DNA of 36,070 bases from Balneolaceae bacterium (lineage in GTDB: Bacteria > Bacteroidota > Rhodothermia > Balneolales > Balneolaceae). Every line of letters begins with the position of its first letter. The stretch's first letter is position 1. Shown one piece after another: positions 27,047 to 36,064 of the stretch. Under the pieces are notes generated by a model. It was not told the DNA's origin. It saw nothing but the letters and a program-made list of their open reading frames with translations, and made no database searches. The stretch is taken from assembly GCA_007135335.1 (NCBI GenBank), contig SLJB01000109.1, positions 1 through 36,070 on the forward strand, given 5' to 3'. The translations under genes and the position numbers were made by a program.

Positions 27047-27234
27047 GATGCAATAAAGAATTTAAATAATGCCCGAATGGTTCCAATTGATGATATTTTG
27101 AAGCAGGCAGTACATTAAGAATAGTACCACTTTTTACGCACAATAGGCACCGTTGATCTATCCGTATTATCGTGCAGCAGATATCATTAAAAAAATAGTT
27201 GCGATTCATTTTAAATAGAACGAATTTTATACCA

Positions 27235-27297
27235 ATGAATTACAGCACAGAACATACTTTCTCAACTCTTCGCCGTCGCCGCCCTTGGGGCGCGTGA
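27235..27297 (+). CDS. Arginine leader peptide (MNYSTEHTFSTLRRRRPWGA), below the length cutoff of the ORF track
   Basis: ATG AAT TAC AGC ACA GAA CAT ACT TTC TCA ACT CTT CGC CGT CGC CGC CCT TGG GGC GCG TGA TGA. Four consecutive Arg codons and tandem stops, followed by a terminator upstream of argF. Confidence 0.8.
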   Translation: MNYSTEHTFSTLRRRRPWGA

Positions 27298-27372
27298 TGA
27301 ATCTGTGTAGTTAATTCTACAAAAGGACTTATTCGCAGCCCGCTCAATTCAAACTGAGCGGGTTTTTTTTTG
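27280..27372 (+). promoter_or_regulatory. Transcription attenuator for argFGH: competing hairpins and terminator
   Basis: 1:2 CGCCC(27280-27284)/GGGCG(27288-27292). 2:3 GGGCGCG(27288-27294)/CGCAGCCC(27335-27342, one bulged A). 3:4 terminator CCCGCTCA(27340-27347)/TGAGCGGG(27356-27363) plus T9 (27364-27372). Confidence 0.78.
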
Positions 27373-27467
27373 GGCTGATTAAAAAGCTGCCCGAAAGAAC
27401 AATAGCGGCTGCAGTTCTTTCTCTCTCCAAAGTCTCAACAACCCTGCAACAATAATTTTTTATAATC

Positions 27468-28454
27468 ATGAACCACTTATTAACCATTGGAGAACTCGAA
27501 CCCGTCCAGATTCAGCAACTTCTGGATCTGAGCGCTGAGCTTGAATCTACAGGCGAACAGGTTTTACAAGGCAAAAACATAGGCTTCGTTTTCGAAAAAC
27601 CTTCGTTACGAACAAAAATAGGAACCGAAGTAGCCATCAACCAGCTTGGCGGTAATGCAGTGCAGATCGAAGCCGACCTGTTACTTGCAAACGGAAAGGC
27701 TGTTCCGTTTACCTGCCGGGAATCGCTTTATGATGCCATGATGAACGTTTCGCAGTGGTGCGATGCCATTTTTGCAAGAGTTTACTCTCACAATACACTC
27801 GTAAAAATGAAAGAGTATGGCACCATCCCCGTGGTGAACGCACTTTGCAATATGCATCATCCCATGCAGGCACTTGCCGACATGCTCACTATACAGCAGA
27901 AATTCGGGAAGGAGAAAAAACTGAACATCGCTTTTGTTGGGGATGCCAACAACGTGGCTTTTTCGTTGTTTGAAACTGCCCTGCAAATGGGCCACAGCGT
28001 AGCATTCGCCGGGCCAAAACAGTACAGTTGGGATGAAGATAAGCTGAACTATTTTTCGCTTCTCTCTGTGCAGTTTGGTGGAGGTTTCAACTGTACAACC
28101 AATCCGGCTGAGGCGGTCAGTAATGCCGATGTTATCTATACGGATACATTTGTATCGATGGGAGAAGAGCATTTTTTTGAAGAGAAAATCAAACACTTTC
28201 AGCCTTATCAGGTAAACGAGAAACTCTTTTCTCAGGCAAAACCTGAAACCGGCTTTATGCACTGTCTGCCCGCTCACCGGGGTATAGAAGTAACCGATGA
28301 AGTGATGGATCATCCCAACTCGTGGGTTTATCAGCAGGCGAAAAACAGGAAAGTGGTATCAAAAGGGGTTTTTACTGCTCTTTTGTGCGATGAATACAGG
28401 TCCCTTTTCAAACCTCAAGGTAAACCTGAACTCGCAGCATCACTCAGTAACTAA
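27468..28454 (+). CDS. argF: Ornithine carbamoyltransferase (or acylated-ornithine variant)
   Basis: FEKPSLRTKIGTEVAINQLGG, HHPMQALADMLTI, FMHCLPAHRGIEVTDEV; followed by argG and argH. Confidence 0.9.
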   Translation: MNHLLTIGELEPVQIQQLLDLSAELESTGEQVLQGKNIGFVFEKPSLRTKIGTEVAINQLGGNAVQIEADLLLANGKAVPFTCRESLYDAMMNVSQWCDAIFARVYSHNTLVKMKEYGTIPVVNALCNMHHPMQALADMLTIQQKFGKEKKLNIAFVGDANNVAFSLFETALQMGHSVAFAGPKQYSWDEDKLNYFSLLSVQFGGGFNCTTNPAEAVSNADVIYTDTFVSMGEEHFFEEKIKHFQPYQVNEKLFSQAKPETGFMHCLPAHRGIEVTDEVMDHPNSWVYQQAKNRKVVSKGVFTALLCDEYRSLFKPQGKPELAASLSN

Positions 28455-28497: not shown

Positions 28498-29766
28498 ATG
28501 GAACACGTAACAACCTATAAAAAAGTAGCTTCTCACGAAGCCGAAAAAGGATCTTTCAACACCTGCCTGCTGCTCTACTCGGGAGGACTCGATACAAGCG
28601 TTATGCTCAAATGGATACGAGAGGAGTATGAGTGCGAAGTCATTGCGCTGACAATCAACATCGGGCAAACAGCAGACAACCTGGAAGCGATCAAAGAAAA
28701 GGCACTGAAACTTGGTGCGAAAGAGGCCATTATTTATGATGCCAAAGACGAATTTGCCCAGCTTTGTATGGAGGCGGTAAAAGCAAATGCCGATTATCAG
28801 GGTGGCTATGCGCTCGGCTGCCCGCTTGGAAGAGTGATGATTTCGGAACTGGCTGTGCAATTTGCCGCAGAGTTTGGCTGCGAAGTGATTGCACACGGCT
28901 GTACCGGAAAAGGAAATGATCAGGTTCGGTTTGAAAGTTATATCACCACACTTAACCCAAAATTGAAAATTATTGCCCCGGTTAGAGAGTGGGGAATGGG
29001 ACGGGAAGAGGAAATTGCCTACGCCATTAAAAACGGAATTCCCGTAGAGCAGACGAAAAAAAGCCCCTACTCATACGACGAAAACATGTGGGCCAACACG
29101 GGCGAGGGTGGTGAAATTGAAAACCCGTCACTGATCCCCCCTCTCGAAAATATCCTGAAATGGTGCAACACTCCGCAGAATGCGCCTGACCAGGAAGAGC
29201 TGGTAAAAATCGGTTTTGAAAAAGGCGAGCCGGTAAGCCTGAATGGTGTTGAGTATGATAAAAAAGAGATCATCCTGCTTCTTAATGAAATAGGCGGCAA
29301 ACACGGAGTGGGCTTCTTTCACCTGATTGAAGACAGGGTAGTTGGCCTGAAGGTAAGAGGGGTTTATGAAAATCCTGCAGCACATATTTTGATCCAATCC
29401 CACAAAAACCTCGAACAGCTTGTATCCACCCGGGAGGAGAACGAGCTGAAGACGCTGATGGATCAAAAATGGGCATACCTTATATATGGCGCCAAATATT
29501 ATGAGCCGGTGATGGATAATATCAGGGCTTACATCAATGAGCAGAATAAAAAGGTAACCGGTGATGTAACCGTGCGGCTCTACAAAGGTAATTGCGAAGT
29601 TGTTGCGCTGAATTCACCCTATTCACTGTTTGATGAGAACCTGGCAACTTTCAACAAATCGGCTGCTTTCAATCAAAATGCCTCATCCGGATTTATTGAG
29701 CTTTGGAATCTGCCGCAAAAAACGGCCTATCAGCTGAAAAAGACCGTTAATAAGGAACCGGTTTAA
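28498..29766 (+). CDS. argG: Argininosuccinate synthase (start chosen at MEHVTTYKKVA rather than ORF start 28390)
   Basis: LLYSGGLDTSVMLKWI, AHGCTGKGNDQVRFE, TKKSPYSYDENMWANTGEGGEIE. The ORF start at 28390 would overlap argF by 65 bp. Confidence 0.95.
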   Translation: MEHVTTYKKVASHEAEKGSFNTCLLLYSGGLDTSVMLKWIREEYECEVIALTINIGQTADNLEAIKEKALKLGAKEAIIYDAKDEFAQLCMEAVKANADYQGGYALGCPLGRVMISELAVQFAAEFGCEVIAHGCTGKGNDQVRFESYITTLNPKLKIIAPVREWGMGREEEIAYAIKNGIPVEQTKKSPYSYDENMWANTGEGGEIENPSLIPPLENILKWCNTPQNAPDQEELVKIGFEKGEPVSLNGVEYDKKEIILLLNEIGGKHGVGFFHLIEDRVVGLKVRGVYENPAAHILIQSHKNLEQLVSTREENELKTLMDQKWAYLIYGAKYYEPVMDNIRAYINEQNKKVTGDVTVRLYKGNCEVVALNSPYSLFDENLATFNKSAAFNQNASSGFIELWNLPQKTAYQLKKTVNKEPV

Positions 29767-29869: not shown

Positions 29870-31180
29870 ATGTCTAAACTCTGGCAAAACCCCACTGATC
29901 AATCAAAAACGGATACTGCAAAAAAAGTTGAGGCATTTACCGTGGGCAATGATTATCTGCTCGACCGGCAGCTGGTTCCCTTTGATATACAGGCCTCAAA
30001 AGTTCATGCAAAAGCCATATACAAAGCCGGTGTTCTTACTGAAAAAGAGCTGAATGATCTGCTCGAAGGGCTGTCTGAAATTGAAAAAGCCTGGGAGCAG
30101 GGAACCTTTGAAATCACTCTTGCAGATGAAGACATGCATACCGCTATTGAAAATGCACTGGTTGAGAAACTGGGAGAGTCCGGAAAAAAAATCCATACCG
30201 CGCGTTCAAGAAATGATCAGGTACTAACGGCTGTCCGGCTATTCGAAAAGAAGGCACTCGAGACCGTTCTTTTTGGAATTAAAAAAACTGCAGAACTCCT
30301 GATCAGCCTGGGTGAAGAGCACGAAAATGTGCCCATGCCGGGTTTCACACATACCCGAAAAGCCATGCTGAGCAGTGTAGGGCTCTGGGCCGGTGGTTTT
30401 GCTGAATTGCTGATCATGCAGCTGGAAGCCTCATCAGGAATCAAAAGTCTGATTAGCCGATCTCCCTTAGGCACAGCGGCAGGTTTTGGCACCACGTTTG
30501 ATATTGACCGGGAATTTGAAGCAAAGGAACTGGGCTTCGAGGTGCCGCTATTCTGCTCAACAACCGCACAGCTTTCACGGGGTTGGGTTGAGATGCAATT
30601 TGTTCAATATCTTGCATCGGTTACGGTGATATTAAGCAGATTAGCTGCGGATGTGATTCAGATGAGCAGTGAGTCAACCCCCTATTTTCTGCTGGATAGC
30701 GTAGTGTGTACGGGCTCTTCTATCATGCCGCAGAAAAAGAATCCCGATCTTGCCGAACTGATTCGCGGCCGGCACGCACAGGTAGCAGGGCAGGCTGCAA
30801 CGCTGCAGTCCCTGATTATTAATTTGGGCAGCGGCTATCACAGGGATTTACAGCTTACAAAAGAGCCTGTGATAAAGGCAGTGTCGGATACACTTGAAAT
30901 GCTGGAAGCTTCACAGATGCTTATCCGTCATATTGAGCCAAACAGGAATGAAATGGAAGCCGCTTGTACCAGTGAGTTGTTTGCAGCGGAAGCAGCTAAT
31001 AAGCTTGTAAAAGAAGAGGGAATATCATTCAGGGAAGCTTATCACATCGTAAAAACAGATCCTGAAATTTCTAAGATGCTGCATTGGAGTGAAATGATAA
31101 ACAAATATACCCACCTTGGATCTCCGGGAAATCCCGGAATAAAAGAATTAAAAAACAAATTGCATCAATTAGAGAGCTGA
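29870..31180 (+). CDS. argH: Argininosuccinate lyase
   Basis: DEDMHTAIENAL, HTARSRNDQVLTAVRLF, GSSIMPQKKNPDLAELIRGR. Confidence 0.97.
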   Translation: MSKLWQNPTDQSKTDTAKKVEAFTVGNDYLLDRQLVPFDIQASKVHAKAIYKAGVLTEKELNDLLEGLSEIEKAWEQGTFEITLADEDMHTAIENALVEKLGESGKKIHTARSRNDQVLTAVRLFEKKALETVLFGIKKTAELLISLGEEHENVPMPGFTHTRKAMLSSVGLWAGGFAELLIMQLEASSGIKSLISRSPLGTAAGFGTTFDIDREFEAKELGFEVPLFCSTTAQLSRGWVEMQFVQYLASVTVILSRLAADVIQMSSESTPYFLLDSVVCTGSSIMPQKKNPDLAELIRGRHAQVAGQAATLQSLIINLGSGYHRDLQLTKEPVIKAVSDTLEMLEASQMLIRHIEPNRNEMEAACTSELFAAEAANKLVKEEGISFREAYHIVKTDPEISKMLHWSEMINKYTHLGSPGNPGIKELKNKLHQLES

Positions 31181-31265: not shown

Positions 31266-31497
31266 AGTATAATTATTTTAATTTTTGTCAAACCATTATT
31301 GCATTTCTTAGAAAATAGCACTATCCATGGTGTTCAATATTGAGTACCAATCAATTCGTGCCTCTGCTTAAAGGCTACTTAATAAGTAAACTAAGCAGAT
31401 AATTCCACTTACATAATTCAACCAGCTTTATCCTTTAATAATAACCTGTACATTTTATTTGTACCTAATCAATTACTCATTAACCAAAACAATTTCT

Positions 31498-34400
31498 ATG
31501 AAAAGTAAACTTTACATACTCTTTCTTGCTCTGTTTTGCTTTGCTGCATCAGAGGCTTATAGTCAGGGTTACACAGTTTCCGGAACGGTAACAGATGCAA
31601 CAACAGGCGAAGCTTTGCCTGGCACAACCGTAACTGTTCCGGCTCTAAACAGAGGTGGTGTAACTGACATTGATGGAAACTATTCTTTTAATTTGCCGCC
31701 CGGTGAGCATCAGGTGGTCATATCTTTTGTTGGCTATCAAAGATTCAGCCGCAACATAACGATCACAGATGCTGATGTAACACTAAACATTGAGCTCCGG
31801 CTTGATGTTGTTGGATTAGATCAGGTTGTGGTTGTTGGATACGGTGAAATTTCCCGCAGGGAGGTAACAGGCGCAATTGCATCGGTACGTGGTGAGGATT
31901 TTCAATTTGCCCCGGTTAACACGGTGGAGAATGCAATGCAAGGCCGAACCGCCGGAGTATTTATTCAGCAAGATGGCGGGAAGCTGGGTCAGGGTATTCA
32001 AATGAGAATCAGGGGTGCGTCTTCCGTATCTGCAAGTAATCAGCCTCTTTATGTTATTGATGGCGTTCCCATTGTGATGGACAATTTTTCCGTGAGTGCC
32101 GCAGCTACAAACCCACTTGCACAGTTTAATTTTAATGATGTGGAATCCATTCAGGTACTTAAAGATGCTTCCGCAGCTGCTATTTACGGTTCGAGGGCTG
32201 CGAATGGTGTAGTGTTGATTACAACCCGGCAGGGTCGCCCGGGCCAAACACAGTTCAATTATTCATTTCAGCAGGGTTTCAGTGAACCAACCAACACTGT
32301 TGATATGATGAATGCCCAGGATTACATTAACTATATGTATCAGGCCGCTGTTAACGGGGATCGTGTTGCCGGGAGTGATTGGCGGGTACCTGAAATCGAA
32401 TGGGTACTTGATACCTATTCTTTGGGTACAGACTGGAGAAGATGTCTTGATACACAATTTGGCGGTCAAGGCCTCGATTGCCCGGTTGATACCGACTGGC
32501 AAAGTGAAGCTTTTCAGGATGCCAGCATGTTTACACACGATCTTTCTGCTTCAGGCGGTAACGAATCAACTCGCTTTTATGTAAGCGGACACTATAGCGA
32601 TCAGGATGGAATTCTTATCAACGACCGTTTCCAGAGAATTTCTGCTCGTATAAATCTGGATCATACAGCGTCTGAAAAGCTAAACCTTGGAATGAATCTT
32701 ACAACCGGGCGTAGTTTCCACAACAGGCTCTCAACAGATAACGCATTTTCAACTCCTATTCAGTTGATTGCGCTCATGCCAATAAGCCCGCTTTATTATC
32801 CTGAAGCCGGTTCACTTCCGAATTATGTTCCAACCGATATATTAAATGACGATACATTTTACTATAACGGTGTAATCCACAGAGATTTTACCAAGTATGA
32901 AGTTACTACCATGAGAACTACAGGTAATTTCCACCTGGGATATAGTGTAAGGCCCGATCTTGAATGGAGATCTGAATTTTCCGCTGATATTGTAACCGGT
33001 AAAGATGATCAATGGTATAGCCCGCGTGTGGCTCGCGGGTTTGCTACTGCTGCAAATGGCGGATATGCATCTGTTGCATGGCAGCAGACAGCTTCTTATA
33101 CAACATCACATTTCCTGTCGTTTAATTCAGATATTTCTCAAAATTCAACCCTGAATGCAACAGCCGGCCTTAGCTATCAGTATAATGACTATAACTATAG
33201 CTTCACTGCAGGTTCCGGTTTTCCTAACGATTCATTTCAGAGGCTGACAAGTGCGGCGAACGTACTTTCCGGCTCTACAACCGGATCGGAATATAGTTTC
33301 CTCTCCTATTTTGCAAGAGCAAACTACTCATTACTCGACCGTTACCTCCTCTCAGTTAGCGGGCGAGTGGATGGTTCATCACGTTTCGGGCGGGATAACC
33401 GTTATGGATTTTTCCCGGCTGCTTCACTCGGTTGGATTCTGACTGATGAAGATTTCGCCGAACCAATACTTGATATCCTTACATATCTGAAGATTCGAAC
33501 CAGTTATGGAATTACCGGTAATGCTGCCATCAGTAACTTCGGCTCACTGGGGCTTTGGGGGGGTACTTCCTATGCAGGACTTTCAGGTACCAATCCATCA
33601 CAGATTCCAAACCCAAACCTAACCTGGGAAACTACAAGGCAGTTTAACATCGGTTTCGACTACGGTTTCTTCAATAACAGAATTAGTGGTGAATTTGACT
33701 ACTATGTTAAGAATACTGAAGATTTGCTACTTAGTGTTCAGATTCCTTCAAGCTCCGGTTTCAGCACAACGCTTAGAAACGTAGGTAACATGGAGAATAA
33801 AGGGTGGGAACTGGTTGTGAATACCATCAACGTAGATGGAAGACTGAGCTGGACAAGTAATTTCAATATTTCCTCGAACAGAAATAAGATTACAAATCTT
33901 GATGGTCAGGTAATCACTGCAGGCCTTGCCAATCTCAATCGGGCGATGGAAGGTTATTCAATTGGTGTTTTCTATGCTCCTGAATTCTACGGAGTAGATG
34001 CTGAAAATGGGGATGCTCTTTTCAGTATTTATGAAGATGAAACTTCTTGCAATAACTTCGTGGAGACCACAACCAGCTATAATGCTGCAACACGTTGTGT
34101 AATTGGTAACCCTAATCCAAAATTTGTTGGTGGAATTGGAAATTCAATACGCTATCGTGGTTTTGACCTGAATGTACTCTTCCAGTTCGTTTATGGAAAT
34201 GATGCCTACATTGGGGGGCATGGAAGATGGAGCCGTGGTAACGGTATTTTTGAGGACAACTCCACAATAGATCAGCTCAACAGCTGGACTCCGCAAAACC
34301 GGGATACCAATGTACCTGAGGCCCGATACATCATTACAAATGGGAATCAGCACTCTTCAAGATATATTTCTGATGCATCATATATGCGCCTGAAAAATGT

Positions 34401-34623
34401 AACACTTGGTTATGAACTCCCTGTTAACATAATACGCCAACTCGGTTTAAATAAAGTTCGTTTCTATGCAACCGGTGTGAACCTGCTCACCTGGACAAGC
34501 TATGAAGGATGGGATCCGGAAATGAATACAGACTTCCTGGCAGATAACATTTCACAGGGAACAGACTTCTACACTGCTCCGCAGGCCCGTACCATTACTT
34601 TCGGGATTGACATTGGTTTTTAA
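31498..34623 (+). CDS. SusC/RagA-family TonB-linked outer membrane receptor
   Basis: Signal peptide MKSKLYILFLALFCFAASEAYSQ; YTVSGTVTDATTGEALPGTTVTV carboxypeptidase-like domain; VVVGYGEISRREVTGAI; MRIRGASSVSASNQPLYVIDGVP; DASAAAIYGSRAANGVVLITT. Confidence 0.97.
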   Translation: MKSKLYILFLALFCFAASEAYSQGYTVSGTVTDATTGEALPGTTVTVPALNRGGVTDIDGNYSFNLPPGEHQVVISFVGYQRFSRNITITDADVTLNIELRLDVVGLDQVVVVGYGEISRREVTGAIASVRGEDFQFAPVNTVENAMQGRTAGVFIQQDGGKLGQGIQMRIRGASSVSASNQPLYVIDGVPIVMDNFSVSAAATNPLAQFNFNDVESIQVLKDASAAAIYGSRAANGVVLITTRQGRPGQTQFNYSFQQGFSEPTNTVDMMNAQDYINYMYQAAVNGDRVAGSDWRVPEIEWVLDTYSLGTDWRRCLDTQFGGQGLDCPVDTDWQSEAFQDASMFTHDLSASGGNESTRFYVSGHYSDQDGILINDRFQRISARINLDHTASEKLNLGMNLTTGRSFHNRLSTDNAFSTPIQLIALMPISPLYYPEAGSLPNYVPTDILNDDTFYYNGVIHRDFTKYEVTTMRTTGNFHLGYSVRPDLEWRSEFSADIVTGKDDQWYSPRVARGFATAANGGYASVAWQQTASYTTSHFLSFNSDISQNSTLNATAGLSYQYNDYNYSFTAGSGFPNDSFQRLTSAANVLSGSTTGSEYSFLSYFARANYSLLDRYLLSVSGRVDGSSRFGRDNRYGFFPAASLGWILTDEDFAEPILDILTYLKIRTSYGITGNAAISNFGSLGLWGGTSYAGLSGTNPSQIPNPNLTWETTRQFNIGFDYGFFNNRISGEFDYYVKNTEDLLLSVQIPSSSGFSTTLRNVGNMENKGWELVVNTINVDGRLSWTSNFNISSNRNKITNLDGQVITAGLANLNRAMEGYSIGVFYAPEFYGVDAENGDALFSIYEDETSCNNFVETTTSYNAATRCVIGNPNPKFVGGIGNSIRYRGFDLNVLFQFVYGNDAYIGGHGRWSRGNGIFEDNSTIDQLNSWTPQNRDTNVPEARYIITNGNQHSSRYISDASYMRLKNVTLGYELPVNIIRQLGLNKVRFYATGVNLLTWTSYEGWDPEMNTDFLADNISQGTDFYTAPQARTITFGIDIGF

Positions 34624-34663
34624 ACAGGAGTTTGTAAACAAGAACATCACGATATAATTCATT

Positions 34664-36064
34664 ATGAAAATATATAAACACTTATTTTTAATACTCATCC
34701 TCGGTGTTACTTTCTCAGGATGTGGAGATCTCCTTGATCTGGAGCCTCAGGCATCAATCTCGGATGAAATTGCACTTTCAAACCCCGATAACGTAGAAAC
34801 CGCTCTTGTGGGGGGGTACGCTGCGCTGGGCGGTGCTAATGCTTACGGAGGTCATTACATATTTCTGACCGACATCTTTGCAGCCCCGGCAGATGAGATA
34901 TTCTTCAATGGAACATTTACCCAGCCAAGGGAAGTTAATGCGAAATCCATTCTCATTGATAACAGTTATATGGCCGGGTATTGGGCAACAAGCTTCAACA
35001 TCATCAACAGAGCAAATAATGTTCTGGAAGCACTTGATGTATTTGGAACTGATACTGAACGGCGTATCCGCGTAGAAGCCGAAGCCCGGTTTTTACGGGG
35101 AACAGCTTTCTACAATCTTGTAGTTGCATACGGTAAGGCGTACAACGATGGGAATCCACAGAGTAATCCGGGAGTGCCATTAATCCTTACACCTACAAGA
35201 GCTGCCGATGAAACACTTGAGGTTGAAAGAGCCTCTGTTGCTGAAGTTTATGATCTTGTACTTTCGGATCTTTCCTTTGCAATGGAGAATCTTCCCACTT
35301 CAAACGGATTTTTGGCAGATACATACGTAGCAAGTGCAATGCTTGCCAGGGTGTATCTGAGTATGGGCAACTTTGAGCAGTCAGGGGCACATGCCCAGCG
35401 GGTTATAGGATCAGGAAATTACGCTCTGTATGCTGATATCAGTGACAATTATGTGCGAGTTCAGAATGGATCTGAAACCATTTTTGCCATTCAAAATACT
35501 GAAACAACATTCAGTAATGATATGGCAGTATTCTATGCACCTACCTCCTCTTTCGGCCGTGCCGATGTTCAGGTTAGAGATCCGCATCTCGAGAATTATG
35601 AACCGGGTGATGCCCGCGCAGATTTGTTTGTGGAAACAACAAGGGGTCGCATGACATTGAAATATGCCTCCCTTGATCCATCCGTTGACCCACGACGAAG
35701 AAACATTACTGTTCTGAGGTTAGCTGAGATGCACCTGATTCGTGCAGAAGTAAATGTAAGGCTTACAGGTTCCGGAAATGCCGGAATTGGGAGTGCCACT
35801 CCCGAAGATGACATCAATGCAATTCGAGCCAGAGTTGGCCTCGACCCACTTGCCGGCGTTACTCTTGCACAAGTTTTACAGGAAAGACGAAATGAGCTGA
35901 TGTTTGAAGGCCAGTTGCTTAACGATCTGAAAAGATTGGAAAGCTTTACAATAGATCTGAACGATCAGCAGGTTCCGTGGAACGCCGACAGGATGGTATT
36001 TCCTATTCCTGAACGCGAATTGAATGTGAATTCAAGACTTGTTCAGAATCCCGGTTATAACTAA
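34664..36064 (+). CDS. SusD/RagB-family nutrient-binding outer membrane lipoprotein
   Basis: Lipobox LILGVTFSGCGDLLDLEPQ; RVEAEARFLRGTAFYNLVVAYG; RRNELMFEGQLLNDLKRL; C-terminal MVFPIPERELNVNSRLVQNPGYN. Confidence 0.97.
   Translation: MKIYKHLFLILILGVTFSGCGDLLDLEPQASISDEIALSNPDNVETALVGGYAALGGANAYGGHYIFLTDIFAAPADEIFFNGTFTQPREVNAKSILIDNSYMAGYWATSFNIINRANNVLEALDVFGTDTERRIRVEAEARFLRGTAFYNLVVAYGKAYNDGNPQSNPGVPLILTPTRAADETLEVERASVAEVYDLVLSDLSFAMENLPTSNGFLADTYVASAMLARVYLSMGNFEQSGAHAQRVIGSGNYALYADISDNYVRVQNGSETIFAIQNTETTFSNDMAVFYAPTSSFGRADVQVRDPHLENYEPGDARADLFVETTRGRMTLKYASLDPSVDPRRRNITVLRLAEMHLIRAEVNVRLTGSGNAGIGSATPEDDINAIRARVGLDPLAGVTLAQVLQERRNELMFEGQLLNDLKRLESFTIDLNDQQVPWNADRMVFPIPERELNVNSRLVQNPGYN

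Follow-up and report, generated by a model that had tools for sequence, protein, structure and literature searches.

Arginine operons are textbook targets of the repressor ArgR. In fungi, the arginine attenuator peptide (CPA1 and arg-2) is an upstream peptide that makes an arginine biosynthesis gene arginine responsive through nascent-peptide arrest acting on translation. The trp, his, leu, and thr attenuators of Proteobacteria combine a short leader carrying a run of product codons with the alternative RNA pairings 1:2, 2:3, and 3:4. In Actinobacteria and Firmicutes, leader attenuators were predicted by comparative genomics for Trp, Leu, Ile/Val, Cys, and His (PMC1262725, PMC2965389), and neither study reported a leader for arginine biosynthesis. 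The nearest bacterial arginine-codon sensor found in the literature is Salmonella speF ORF34, in which consecutive Arg codons sense arginine by ribosome pausing and mRNA refolding (PMC6386406). No bacterial leader peptide for arginine biosynthesis was found in the openly readable literature; an earlier prediction may exist, for example, in the survey of Proteobacteria that Vitreschak and colleagues published in 2004.

The window examined here, which is the whole analyzed stretch of 36,070 nucleotides from a Balneolaceae MAG, contains such a candidate upstream of argF. An earlier note on the letters of this window had described a 20-codon ORF with CGC CGT CGC CGC, a tandem TGA, and a T9 hairpin ahead of argF-argG-argH. 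All of these parts were present, and the three genes matched their family profiles above the cut-offs. The leader ORF reads MNYSTEHTFSTL-RRRR-PWGA. The genes and leader parts are located as follows.

27199 to 27229, forward strand: putative Bacteroidota-type promoter, with TTG at 27199-27201 (-36 from the ATG) and a CGAATTTTA box at 27221-27229
27235 to 27297, forward strand: leader ORF MNYSTEHTFSTLRRRRPWGA, 20 codons, ATG at 27235, stop TGA at 27295-27297 and a second TGA at 27298-27300
27271 to 27282, forward strand: regulatory Arg codons CGC CGT CGC CGC (codons 13-16), a run or cluster shared by the argF leaders of the order
27468 to 28454, forward strand: argF, ornithine carbamoyltransferase (TIGR00658, 305.6 bits, cut-off 280.85)
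28561 to 29766, forward strand: argG, argininosuccinate synthase (TIGR00032, above cut-off)
29870 to 31180, forward strand: argH, argininosuccinate lyase (TIGR00838, 293.2 bits, cut-off 279.5)

The argG ORF opens at 28390, and its TIGR00032 family match starts at about 28561. CGC and CGT together account for 182 of the 470 Arg codons in the genes of the window; thus, these codons are not rare, which points to tRNA-Arg charging. No second leader was seen before the argB-D-C-J operon; in the window's own genome, the contig begins 38 nt before argB.

Relatives of argF were found in 39 of the 135 genomes of the order. Most of the genomes compared were MAGs, and the close argF relatives with named records were mostly Balneolaceae MAGs. 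Nearly all argF relatives whose upstream region was present carried a leader at the same place, mostly of 19 to 21 codons, and the T-run of the terminator started 51 to 84 nt past the leader stop. Covariation was examined in 31 of these sequences by calculating, for each pairing, the duplex energy between the two arms of the same sequence and setting it against the energies obtained after the arms had been permuted. The RNA elements of the window and the results for their arms are as follows.

27237 to 27258, forward strand: 5' arm of an outer stem, in leader codons 1-8, pairing with 27293-27317 (z = -5.6, 0 of 5,000 permutations)
27293 to 27317, forward strand: 3' arm of the outer stem, covering the stop and the segment behind it (cross-pairing test)
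27274 to 27298, forward strand: protector hairpin 1:2, which shares bases with the last Arg codons (minimum-energy fold; cross-pairing z = -4.7, 0 of 5,000)
27287 to 27301, forward strand: region 2 of the antiterminator, including the stop codon and pairing with 27329-27341 (z = -6.9, 0 of 5,000)
27329 to 27341, forward strand: antiterminator region 3, which shares bases with the 5' arm of the terminator
27337 to 27371, forward strand: intrinsic terminator 3:4 with T9 (consensus scan; 5 of 9 pairs changed on both sides)
27321 to 27330, forward strand: 5' arm of a clamp stem, AAAAGGACUU, covarying with a segment past the terminator (z = -3.5, 3 of 10,000)
27412 to 27421, forward strand: 3' arm of the clamp stem, CAGUUCUUUC, which exists solely in read-through RNA

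The fold of the leader RNA was more stable than those of 198 out of 200 dinucleotide shuffles (z = -3.0), and its terminator consists of a hairpin at 27337-27364 followed by nine T at 27363-27371. In the antiterminator, GGGGCGCGUGAUGAA pairs with UUAUUCGCAGCCC at -14.8 kcal/mol. The cells of this duplex were paired in 92% of cases in a MAFFT alignment versus 31 to 52% when slid, and both the sliding and the permutation controls leave shared ancestry in. In genus g18, where the terminator base changes from GCCC to GCCT, region 2 changes along with it, replacing a GC with an AU pair. The Arg run, the stop position, and all three competing pairings expected by the earlier note were conserved and covarying in the relatives. 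The antiterminator that it had drawn is a real and covarying pairing but was too short, and its hairpin 1:2, also real and covarying, forms just the apex of a larger structure that the outer stem encloses. The outer stem, which that description did not contain, pairs leader codons 2-8 with the segment at and past the stop and thereby folds the leader ORF into one long hairpin that has the Arg codons close to its end; it is predicted to take part in the switch. In the clamp, a segment just 5' of region 3 is complementary to a segment 8 to 44 nt beyond the T-tract, so that the stem surrounds the terminator and is available only to transcripts that have read past it. Covariation of the clamp was limited to this genus and one neighboring genus and was absent from the other sequences.

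The structural switch was reproduced in silico by folding the leader around a ribosome whose edge was set, by assumption, 12 nt beyond the start of the codon in the A site. The mean probability that the terminator 5' arm was sequestered upstream was 0.83 with the ribosome at Arg1, 0.83 at Arg2, and 0.71 at Arg3, compared with 0.25 at the stop and 0.45 in the untranslated leader. Sequestration at Arg1 exceeded that at the stop in 31 of 32 sequences. With the ribosome on the first Arg codons, the antiterminator formed in all 32 sequences, and with the ribosome at the stop it was usually blocked. Between Arg3 and Arg4, the probability dropped sharply from 0.71 to 0.19. The earlier proposal that a stall on the Arg codons favors pairing 2:3 was therefore borne out by the model for Arg1 to Arg3 but not for Arg4, where the ribosome already covers region 2. 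The companion proposal, that a ribosome at the UGA covers region 2 and favors the terminator, agreed with the usual outcome of the model. Stalls at codons preceding the Arg run likewise favored antitermination (approximately 0.75), indicating that the structure itself is not arginine specific and that specificity must stem from the codon content. The predictions for the outer stem and the untranslated state were moderate and differed from sequence to sequence.

Of 30 relatives, 25 carried a TTG 35 to 37 nt upstream of the leader ATG, and many also had a GAAnTTT-like box some 14 nt 5' of this start codon. The known geometry of Bacteroidota promoters was used to place the transcription start, and together with the TTG spacing it predicts a start within a few nucleotides of the leader ATG. 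The leader mRNA would then be nearly leaderless, a reading drawn from promoter spacing. In Bacteroides, 5' UTRs shorter than 10 nt are rare (3.7%; PMC7366714).

The element before argFGH very probably works as a ribosome-mediated transcription attenuator of the classical type that is specific for arginine, a reading built on the leader anatomy, the covarying arms, and the fold model. For its operation, we infer the transcription start, translation, stalling, and arginine response as follows. Transcription would start a few nucleotides 5' of the ATG, and a ribosome would translate the 20-codon leader behind RNA polymerase. When charged tRNA-Arg is scarce, the ribosome would stall at Arg codons 1 to 3 and open the protector 1:2; region 2 could then pair with region 3, no terminator would form, and argFGH would be transcribed. 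When arginine is plentiful, the ribosome would reach the UGA and cover region 2, so that 3:4 would form and transcription would stop before argF. In an untranslated leader, the outer stem and 1:2 would tend to keep region 2 occupied, resulting in partial termination by default, and in the read-through RNA of this genus the clamp stem would close around the terminator. The scheme predicts a near-leaderless leader, read-through on arginine limitation, and a ribosome stall at codons 13 to 15.

This arrangement resembles the trp, his, leu, and thr attenuators of Proteobacteria in its short leader with a run of product codons and its pairings 1:2, 2:3, and 3:4. It differs from them in being Arg specific, in belonging to another phylum, in scoring below the Rfam thresholds, and in having an outer stem around the ORF, a predicted near-leaderless transcript, and, in the genus, a clamp stem. 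The leader attenuators of Actinobacteria and Firmicutes have the same parts and likewise come from comparative genomics. In contrast to speF ORF34, which controls ornithine decarboxylase via Rho, RNase G, and translation (PMC6386406), the leader described here precedes an intrinsic terminator and arginine biosynthesis genes. The class of mechanism is already known; for its arginine specificity and its occurrence in this lineage no report was found within the openly readable literature. Arginine would thereby join the amino acids sensed by classical attenuators, and leader peptides are documented in a phylum where they have barely been described.

A sensor based on the nascent peptide was considered as another explanation. 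In such a sensor, RRRRP-x-G in the exit tunnel, perhaps together with free arginine, would arrest the ribosome, and the arrest would drive the RNA switch. Arginine-sensing arrest peptides exist in fungi, and the C-terminal P-x-G-V/A is nearly constant in the genus, where the leaders end in L-RRRR-P-x-G-V/A. However, these constant residues coincide with the bases required by stems 1:2 and 2:3. Leaders elsewhere end in RRRRRSGV, RRRRPRA, RNRRRPC, or RRRCRTG, and while the residues after the Arg run vary outside the genus (RSGV, PRA, PC, CRTG, PYGRNT), the stems persist; the residues before the run vary freely. Unlike the CPA1 and arg-2 peptide, what is conserved here is the codon run and the RNA structure rather than the peptide sequence. 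In addition, peptide arrest at high arginine would lead to antitermination, which is the wrong sign for a biosynthetic operon, and we regard this explanation as very unlikely. At L052-L054, the argF leaders are longer and have ..SASPLAI..SVVLRRRC.. in common. Several of the differences among them are apparently synonymous, which suggests conservation of the peptide itself in these genomes.

Even less probable is that a terminator in the intergenic region or 5' UTR acts constitutively and sets only a basal level, with an incidental ORF, or that another repressor acts at the promoter, although the promoter region is conserved as well. The nfeD-type gene upstream of the leader lies divergently on the opposite strand; therefore, the terminator can act only on transcripts running into argF, and there is no upstream gene for a constitutive terminator to end. 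A plain terminator also requires neither mutually exclusive, covarying upstream arms nor an in-frame Arg run. Against these readings also stands a strict scan that required an ATG ORF of 15 to 45 codons, at least 4 Arg in 7 residues, and a stable hairpin with a T-run within 170 nt. The scan was positive in 33 of 35 argF upstream regions, and its controls were essentially empty: shuffled sequences gave 0 on average, the reverse strand gave 1 of 35, and none of 12 other amino acids exceeded 1 of 35.

Sequence-family searches of the leader gave no Rfam family at the gathering threshold (the best weak match was Trp_leader, RF00513, at 20.9 bits versus 41), no match to the T-box model in Rfam, and no matching family in NCBIfam. 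Although arginine T-boxes occur in Firmicutes (PMC1262725), direct sensing of arginine or tRNA-Arg by a riboswitch or T-box has a negligible probability, given the lack of an Rfam family at threshold, the little space left for an aptamer by a structured part lying in and just after the ORF, and the retention of the reading frame and Arg run amid otherwise changing sequence.

ArgR, the usual alternative to such a leader, was sought with TIGR01529. The window's own genome showed no ArgR match at E <= 1, and matches exceeded the cut-off in 0/135 and 0/115 genomes of the class (0/250), with working controls. The sole convincing ArgR, which scored below the cut-off, was found in genome G160 (L253, 1150-1900; E 1.9e-30), where a complete ArgR-like gene immediately precedes argG. 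The sequence before this gene showed no Arg leader and holds ATGCGCAT-type repeats, which could be operators. This one case suggests that repressor and leader replace each other and offers a natural experiment on the mutual replacement of repressor and RNA control. The lineage appears to govern its arginine operons by codon-sensing attenuation in place of ArgR.

The argG gene in four families of the order (f2 with genus g27, f3, f4, and f5) was preceded by a different, longer Arg leader and a terminator in 24 of 26 cases by the strict scan, and the sister order showed an Arg leader and terminator before argG in 20 of 30. The loci with these longer leaders are L097-L099, L101, L112-L138, and L223-L252. 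Although unrelated to the argF leaders, they repeat the same logic, which supports the attenuator reading. Their conserved tails (for example, CEDCV) look RNA driven because the antiterminator arm is encoded there. In the fold model, some argG leaders showed a difference between stall and stop (for example, L112-L115, L128, and L138), and L117-L122, L129, and L130 showed none; an attenuation mechanism for the argG leaders is thus less well supported by the modeling.

Directly before argG in other Balneolaceae genera, the strict scan found no leader (0 of 28). This was first read as loss, a reading that was rejected since another gene precedes argG there and most of these genes have an Arg leader of their own; the result follows from operon order. 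This third type of leader (L148, L150-L156, L158, L159, L161, and L163-L166) has 21 to 25 codons and ends in RIPRRR-stop or similar, often in CCGCGGCGGCGGTAA, with a hairpin just past the stop, no U-tract, and a TTG about 36 nt before the ATG. It lies 86 to 120 nt before the gene preceding argG and approximately 800 to 960 nt upstream of argG. Its architecture points to a read-out of another kind, perhaps dependent on Rho or on translation.

On balance, it is more likely than not that the class has largely lost ArgR and runs arginine synthesis through Arg leaders that head an arginine operon. These would come in at least three architectures: RRRR with a terminator at argF, a longer RRRRxRRR type with a terminator at argG, and leaders of 21 to 25 codons with the Arg run at the stop and a post-stop hairpin without a U-tract ahead of a gene-argG operon. 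The element gains interest from its occurrence throughout the class alongside the loss of ArgR, and from the third type, which lacks a U-tract.

The covariance model of the element also found a WWW leader before trpE in genus g27 (L089 and L090; TIGR00564 above cut-off), and a leader before hisG of another Bacteroidota family, which was read by eye as MRNQNTHHHFYTCPQAS, with HHH (L110). WWW at trpE and HHH at hisG in the same architecture indicate that the codon follows the pathway, and these leaders suggest that leader-peptide attenuation may be widespread in Bacteroidota. The covariance-model search of 398 genomes across the phylum gave no new Arg leader outside the class, and argG upstream regions of another Bacteroidota class were negative in the strict scan (0 of 30); a phylum-wide spread is thus not claimed. 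Of the two distant matches of the search, one was the His leader at L110 and the other, without a leader ORF (L108), is probably due to chance. The weak matches at L091-L096, L100, and L102-L105, none of them a leader ahead of arginine genes, were likewise taken as chance.

In addition, a SusC-like receptor gene lies directly 3' of argH (window 31459-36064), and no terminator was found in the argH-SusC gap of the window. A SusC-like gene, usually with SusD, directly follows argH in 5 of the 10 relatives examined (L185, L186, L188, L189, and L192). Genome G045 (L088), in which the search gave no close argF or argG, carries an Arg leader and terminator 341 nt 5' of a SusC-like gene. The SusC/SusD outer-membrane importer may also be under arginine control in some members.
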